Part shown: in pieces, positions 36,591-37,738 of the stretch
Layout: each line of letters begins with the position of its first letter
How positions within the stretch are numbered: the first letter of the stretch is position 1
Origin: an uncultured Candidatus Altimarinota bacterium
GTDB lineage: Bacteria; Patescibacteriota; Gracilibacteria; BD1-5; UBA2023
Direction: 5' to 3'
DNA: 64,000 nt
Assembly (NCBI GenBank): GCA_936941205.1
Contig: CAKZJF010000028.1
Span: forward strand, 1-64,000
The notes under the pieces: generated by a model
The model's input: only the letters and a program-made list of their open reading frames with translations
Database searches by the model: none
Told to the model about the DNA's origin: nothing
Program-made: the position numbers and the translations under genes

Positions 36591-36665
36591 TACTACAAGA
36601 AAATAGAATATACATCAAAAAAATAACCCCAATTTCTTGGAGCTATTTTAATGATTCAAATCAAA

Positions 36666-37118
36666 TGGTGGAGGTGACGGGAACTGCCCCCGTGTCTTGA
36701 AAGGTGCAACATATACATCTACCTTTTATAGTTCTTTTTTATACCACATATACAGGGAAAAAGAACAAAACAGTATACATGGAGACGGATTTCTAATACC
36801 TCAAGATGAATGAATACCTATCCAATAAGATTCATCTTGGGTCTTGAAGTAATGAAAGAGCTACAAGATTCCTTCTTTCATGTTGCAGCAAGCCATCTGG
36901 CATTCATCTATAAAGAAGGCTGCGTTCTTGTAGTTAAACTAGGCAAGAACTGTCGCAGGAGTAGTATTGCCGAAAAGACGAGCAAGTACACTACCACGAG
37001 TCGAACGAGAAGTTTTAGCACTTCTTTTTTCCGCATTTGATAAGGAAGCGTCGGACCGCTCCCAAAAGGCACATACATCACACATAGATTCTCCCAATCG
37101 AATACTAATATCACCCCC
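36666..37118 (-). ncRNA. ssrA: transfer-messenger RNA (one-piece)
   Basis: 5' GGGGGTGATATTAGTATTCGATTGGG and 3' ACACGGGGGCAGTTCCCGTCACCTCCACCA form a 7-bp acceptor stem (GGGGGTG/CACCTCC) with encoded CCA; internal tag ORF ends TAG at 36939-36941. Confidence 0.9.
36939..37019 (-). other. tmRNA tag-peptide reading frame (proposed AKTSRSTRGSVLARLFGNTTPATVLA*)
   Basis: GCT resume-type codon after A-rich ...GCGGAAAAAAGAAGT; in-frame to TAG; located between 5' and 3' tRNA-like halves. Confidence 0.65.
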
Positions 37119-37156: not shown

Positions 37157-37188
37157 AAAAAAACTCCCCTATATTTCAAGGGGAGCAA
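37157..37188 (-). terminator. intrinsic terminator (minus strand) downstream of 37214..37738
   Basis: Minus strand gctccccttgaaatataggggagttttttt. Confidence 0.8.
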
Positions 37189-37213: not shown

Positions 37214-37738
37214 TTAGCGATTATGCAATGTGGTAAGAACCATTTTGGCTGTATCAGATGAAAGATTTCATTCAATAACAACCGTACCAGAAGTGAGTTT
37301 TGCATATGTTCGTTCAACAGGTTTATTTTTATCTTCAAGTTGCATAATTTGTTCTGGAGTCTTTCATTTATAGAAATAAACTCGAACTGCAGCGTTTAGG
37401 AAGACTGTTGGCACATGCTTTTTATCAATTCCGATTGTATCATTTGCATTCTCAATCTCTTTAAATTTTTTTATAAAATCATCATTAGCGACGGTGAATC
37501 CATATCATTCTTGTTCGTTCCAGTAGGAATTGCCCACCGAACGAGAGTGTTCCGTATTTTTTCATGTCTCCAATTGTTTTGGAGTTATTTCCATATACTG
37601 AACACTCGCTTGGAGTGTAGAATTCTGCGCCTCTGATGCGTTTATAAAGAAATACACTCATAAGAGGAAGAGGAGAGAGAGGATTGCCTGGGTCCACTCT
37701 ACGGTTACCCGTTTAACGGGAACACTTCTTGTTGTCAT
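37214..37738 (-). CDS. hypothetical protein with N-terminal TM (174 aa)
   Basis: MTTRSVPVKRVTVEWTQAILSLLFLLGVYFFINASEAQNSTLQASVQYMEITPKQLE...; table-25 ORF to TAA. Confidence 0.65.

Follow-up and report, generated by a model that had tools for sequence, protein, structure and literature searches.

A divergent one-piece tmRNA with a long basic tag and an altered T-loop in a UGA-recoded Gracilibacterium

The window, which is the whole 64 kb stretch of DNA analysed here, carries a one-piece tmRNA gene (ssrA) on its minus strand (Table 1). The gene is the sole Rfam match in the window detected by cmscan, and it matches the tmRNA model RF00023 over its full length (model positions 1-374, E-value 1.1e-17) with a score of 52.2 bits, which exceeds the gathering cut-off of 47 by only 5 bits. 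A divergent tmRNA had been proposed at this position in a preliminary description made from the sequence alone; the Rfam search bears this out and adds the strand. A better tmRNA elsewhere in the genome was also looked for, and no second full-length RF00023 match passes the cut-off anywhere in the genome (1.31 Mb, an assembly fragmented into 90 contigs), the remaining matches being short and mostly tRNA-sized. Full tmRNAs over the cut-off are present in 21 of the 27 genomes of the window's family, and SmpB is present in all 27. The search for smpB in the window's own genome recovered a protein that exceeds both NCBIfam SmpB cut-offs (157.7 bits for NF003843, cut-off 130). A second terminator-like hairpin (37163-37186, minus strand) lies immediately upstream of the tmRNA, after an open frame at 37214-37738 (minus strand). 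A phage origin of the tmRNA was considered and rejected, no similar DNA being found in the phage collection.

Table 1 Features of the tmRNA locus in the window
Feature	Position	Strand	Evidence or remark
tmRNA gene (ssrA), one-piece, 453 nt including encoded CCA	36666-37118	minus	cmscan; unique full match; 20 full family homologues
Acceptor stem, 5' strand GGGGGUG	37112-37118	minus	7/7 pairs with 36670-36676
D-loop region AUAUUAGUAUUCGA, with AG (37105-37106) where GG is usual	37098-37111	minus	AG accompanies altered T-loop
Helix 2, 5' strand UUGGGAG	37091-37097	minus	pairs with 36697-36703
Putative pseudoknot 1, with first helix GGGAGCG/CGCUUCC and 4-bp second helix UCCG/CGGA	37030-37063	minus	layout common to relatives
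Tag frame, resume codon GCU (37019) to stop UAG (36939), AKTSRSTRGSVLARLFGNTTPATVLA	36939-37019	minus	translation; conserved in L025
Helix 2, 3' strand CUUUCAA	36697-36703	minus	covariation across relatives
T-arm ACGGG-GGCAGUU-CCCGU, loop 36682-36688	36677-36693	minus	stem covaries; loop departs from UUCRA in 19/21 family members
Acceptor stem, 3' strand CACCUCC, with ACCA	36666-36676	minus	cmscan; sequence
Terminator-like hairpin with T-run, 3' of tmRNA	36620-36649	minus	consensus scan; pattern match only

The gene shares with the standard one-piece tmRNA (RF00023) its gene order, the acceptor stem with a G3-U70 pair, helix 2, a resume codon with A at position -4, a tag with its stop codon, SmpB as partner, and probably the layout of pseudoknot 1. 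The acceptor stem suggested by the preliminary description pairs completely, and its G3-U70 alanine identity pair is found in all 21 tmRNAs of the family. Covariance in relatives, when checked in the same 21 sequences, was found in both helix 2 and the T-stem; every one of the seven pairs of helix 2 has two-sided changes that preserve pairing, and two-sided compensatory changes occur in 33 of the 44 consensus pairs of the family alignment. Pseudoknot 1 is clear in many relatives, and its second helix reaches 8-9 bp in many family members. That helix has 4 bp in the same-genus relative L025 (CCAG/CUGG) and also in the window, where it is too short for significance on its own (p 0.33 against shuffles). 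Putative pseudoknots 2-4 are aligned only in part by the RF00023 model, and RNAalifold does not handle pseudoknots.

The T-loop, described beforehand as atypical, is a real variant and not a sequencing oddity. It reads GGCAGUU and not UUCRANY (UUCRA is common in tmRNA, although not strictly defining), and the D-loop has AG in place of the usual GG, in both of which the gene differs from the standard one-piece tmRNA. GGCRGUN or UGCGAUU T-loops are found in 19 of the 21 family members and UGCRANN in other families of Patescibacteria, and the variant T-loop is likewise present in Alphaproteobacteria and in members of the phylum that do not belong to the recoded class. It is a feature of the lineage and not a consequence of the recoded stop codon. 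The T-loop change U342 to G in Caulobacter, and the change of both U to G in the Reclinomonas mitochondrion, were reported in 2005 (PMC1168896). The GGCRGUN T-loop with a D-loop AG is shared with the alphaproteobacterial two-piece tmRNA (RF01849), in which this loop is widespread, but which is a two-piece RNA from a permuted gene, whereas the window tmRNA is in one piece and in standard order (5' acceptor strand, tag, 3' acceptor strand). All 87 sequences that were chosen for G55 from the alphaproteobacterial search have AG or AGG in the D-loop. A permuted tmRNA with a GGCAGUA T-loop was observed at L170:663-982, on a contig labelled Sinobacteraceae.

Among Patescibacteria the two loops vary together. 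A D-loop AG accompanies T-loop G55 in 35 sequences from 16 families and a D-loop GG accompanies U55 in 84 sequences from 42 families, with no crossed combination among these unambiguous sequences; 43 sequences with AGG were set aside as ambiguous in this classification, and nine have other D-loops. A Fisher test on these counts takes no account of relatedness, and the recurrence of the coupling across many families is the better argument for it. The coupling suggests a preserved tertiary contact, of which the simplest reading would be that A18-G55 takes the place of the tRNA contact G18-U55, with G19-C56 kept. The tRNA-like elbow is therefore probably retained, since the D-loop has changed in step with T-loop position 55, and the altered T-loop would be a structural variant, the coupled change providing natural evidence for the elbow contact in tmRNA. 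The full-text literature search returned no paper on this coupling, although key older papers lay outside its reach, and as far as could be checked its recurrence in Patescibacteria is new. The joint change of U55 to G and GG to AG was observed in L231, L235, L239, L246, L284, L292, L301, L304 and others, in many families of the phylum.

ARAGORN detected no gene in the 64 kb window, and it misses 19 of the 21 tmRNAs of the family (L001, L009-L028), so that annotation based on ARAGORN will report no tmRNA there; of the two that it detects, L010 and L017, only the former has an ordinary T-loop. The altered T-loop is the likely reason for these misses. The ARAGORN result, the low covariance-model score and the short second helix of pseudoknot 1 could be taken to mean that the tmRNA is decaying and that the T-loop change marks a loss of function. 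This is hardly credible given the compensated helices, the invariant G3-U70 pair and A at -4, a tag frame conserved across the family, a D-loop change coupled to that of the T-loop, and the retention of SmpB throughout the family. A tmRNA that is invisible to ARAGORN is thus shown to be real.

The tag frame reads as the preliminary description gave it, including its TAG stop and the use of GGT and GGC for glycine, and the encoded peptide, with 26 amino acids and a net charge of +4, indeed exceeds the canonical type in both length and basic character. All 21 family tmRNAs have A at position -4 of the resume codon, the known frame-setting position of tmRNA (A86 in E. coli). This subject is treated in PMC2481249. 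The commonest tag length is 10 amino acids (PMC11915505), against which the window tag is long. The same-genus relative L025 has the tag AKTSRTYRGLAAIFGSTPATVLA, in which the frame, the start and the TVLA end are kept. Two patterns prevail in the family, A[N/K]TRVARGLAAFKxAFAPxxxAA and AKTSPLARLAASFKKSxTPAxxFA, and the tags retain a small hydrophobic end, mostly Ala-Ala. Reassignments of CGA and CGG have been reported in the group (PMC8629427); the window tag is unaffected by these because all of its arginine codons are CGU.

The host was described as a UGA-recoded cell, and this is upheld by nine in-frame TGA codons in its own SmpB gene and by the lack of a prfB match in its genome. Each family was classed as recoded or standard by two criteria, in-frame TGA in SmpB and prfB, and these agree: no prfB match was found in any recoded family searched (f1, the window's family; f2, its sister family; f13; and f15, in the genomes where this is shown), prfB is present in the other families, and a few f1 genomes lack TGA in SmpB. 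That BD1-5 lacks prfB was previously known (PMC6851277). The TAG stop had been expected from a lack of RF2, and that lack stands. As a sign of recoding the stop codon fails, because all identified tags in the class end with TAA or TAG whether the family is recoded or standard.

It had further been suggested that ribosome rescue may face different substrates in a UGA-recoded cell; on this view the loss of RF2 alters the rescue substrates and the long basic tag arose in response. Tags for the comparison were picked by hand and the counts are uncorrected for phylogeny. The window's family (n=21, 21-30 amino acids, net +3 to +4) and its sister family (n=11, 21-28 amino acids, net +3 to +5), largely recoded and without prfB, do show higher minimum charges than the rest of the class. 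However, the recoded family f13 has shorter and less charged tags (n=12, 17-24 amino acids, net +1 to +3, median about +2), and the standard-code families, taken together with f3, for which the code was not determined, have tags that are as long and in some cases as basic (n=42, 18-36 amino acids, net -2 to +5, median +2). The median length is 18-24 amino acids in recoded families against 26 in standard-code families that have prfB, and the stops are alike in both groups. Other Patescibacteria tags (n=18) have 9-31 amino acids and a median charge of +1. An adaptation of the tag to UGA recoding is accordingly very unlikely, and the link was rejected on the comparison of recoded with standard-code families. 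The sequences compared indicate instead that the long tag is class-wide and its charge graded by lineage, and that recoding explains neither; recoding and tag evolution, which are easily confused, are thereby separated.

The reader of the tag was approached through protease content, derived from targeted searches of genomes. ClpX, the usual reader of ssrA-type tags, is over the cut-off in none of the 27 genomes of the window's family and in none of the 127 class genomes searched, with all ten bacterial controls positive; a gene could be hidden by the fragmented assembly, but for ClpX the class-wide count makes this unlikely. ClpP is present in 24 of the 27 family genomes, including that of the window, where it lies on contig C45. 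An ATPase of 853 amino acids with an IGF loop adjoins groEL (L275:3568-6129, on the genome's own contig C42), and since loops of the IGF/LGF kind bind ClpP the protein is read as ClpC-type, although it matches general Clp models without reaching any NCBIfam equivalog cut-off and its best Clp-model matches start only after about residue 160-200. A second Clp ATPase in the genome is ClpB-like, and FtsH is present on contig C83 (736.8 bits). Lon was not found in the window's genome, where the sole Lon_C match is a YifB/ComM protein, and the Lon_C matches across the family are weak (about 34 bits or less) and not individually identified.

The window tmRNA resembles the Mycoplasma tmRNA with an extended tag read by Lon in its similarly long tag, its UGA-recoded host and the lack of ClpX. 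It differs in that Mycoplasma tags are acidic whereas the window tag is basic, and in that its genome yielded ClpP and a ClpC-type unfoldase but not Lon. A comparable switch, in which the extended tag evolved for Lon after loss of ClpXP, is highly improbable here and was rejected, since Lon was not found in the genome and ClpP is retained. PMC3985003 describes the Mycoplasma case with reference to Gur and Sauer 2008 and Ge and Karzai 2009.

As the searches yielded neither ClpX nor Lon, the tag is likely to be read by ClpCP or FtsH. Judged from gene content, the best candidate is ClpP together with the ClpC-type unfoldase, perhaps assisted by FtsH, and FtsH is the main alternative. That FtsH itself reads the tag while ClpCP serves other substrates is unlikely, if far from negligible: FtsH is strongly matched where Lon and ClpX are not found, and in E. 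coli some tagged proteins are substrates of FtsH, but these are membrane-associated ones (PMC3985003), ClpP and its IGF-loop partner are both present, and the family tags keep their small hydrophobic ends. For the ClpC-type reading, a wider proposal is offered tentatively, as possible but short of probable, namely that Gracilibacteria in the broad sense trans-translate without ClpX and that their long, mostly basic tags co-evolved with a ClpC-type partner of ClpP as primary reader. No description of such a pairing of tag and protease was found, and the combination of long tags with no ClpX found across the class is, as far as could be checked, new; it poses the testable question of which unfoldase acts on ssrA tags in these bacteria.

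Taken as a whole, the locus very probably encodes a functional one-piece tmRNA of a Gracilibacterium that reads UGA as glycine, with a long basic tag inherited in the lineage, a T-loop variant that probably preserves the elbow, and degradation of tagged proteins presumably by ClpP and the ClpC-type unfoldase. On this reading, based on sequence features, the RNA would be charged with alanine by way of G3-U70, bind SmpB and enter stalled ribosomes, where translation would move to the GCU resume codon; the 26-residue tag would then be added, and RF1, which is expected to be the sole release factor, would free the product at UAG. The length and basic charge of the tag are inherited with the lineage and do not stem from the reassignment of UGA. 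The tmRNA belongs to a known kind, its T-loop variant has precedent, and tags vary by lineage as a rule. These tmRNAs may already be listed in an existing database that holds 97,179 tmRNA sequences (PMC11915505).

Unusual tags were also observed within f13. L087 is an unusually short tmRNA of 301 nt with an 18-residue tag, ANNMRLAAARAYAPAFAA. Two others have an in-frame UGA in the tag, L091 (ANA-G-KSLLKRAELVKAYA) and L092 (ANEKT-G-LLSRVKAAFARQNALSFA), which are readable only if UGA is glycine and in which the recoded codon lies within the tmRNA tag itself.
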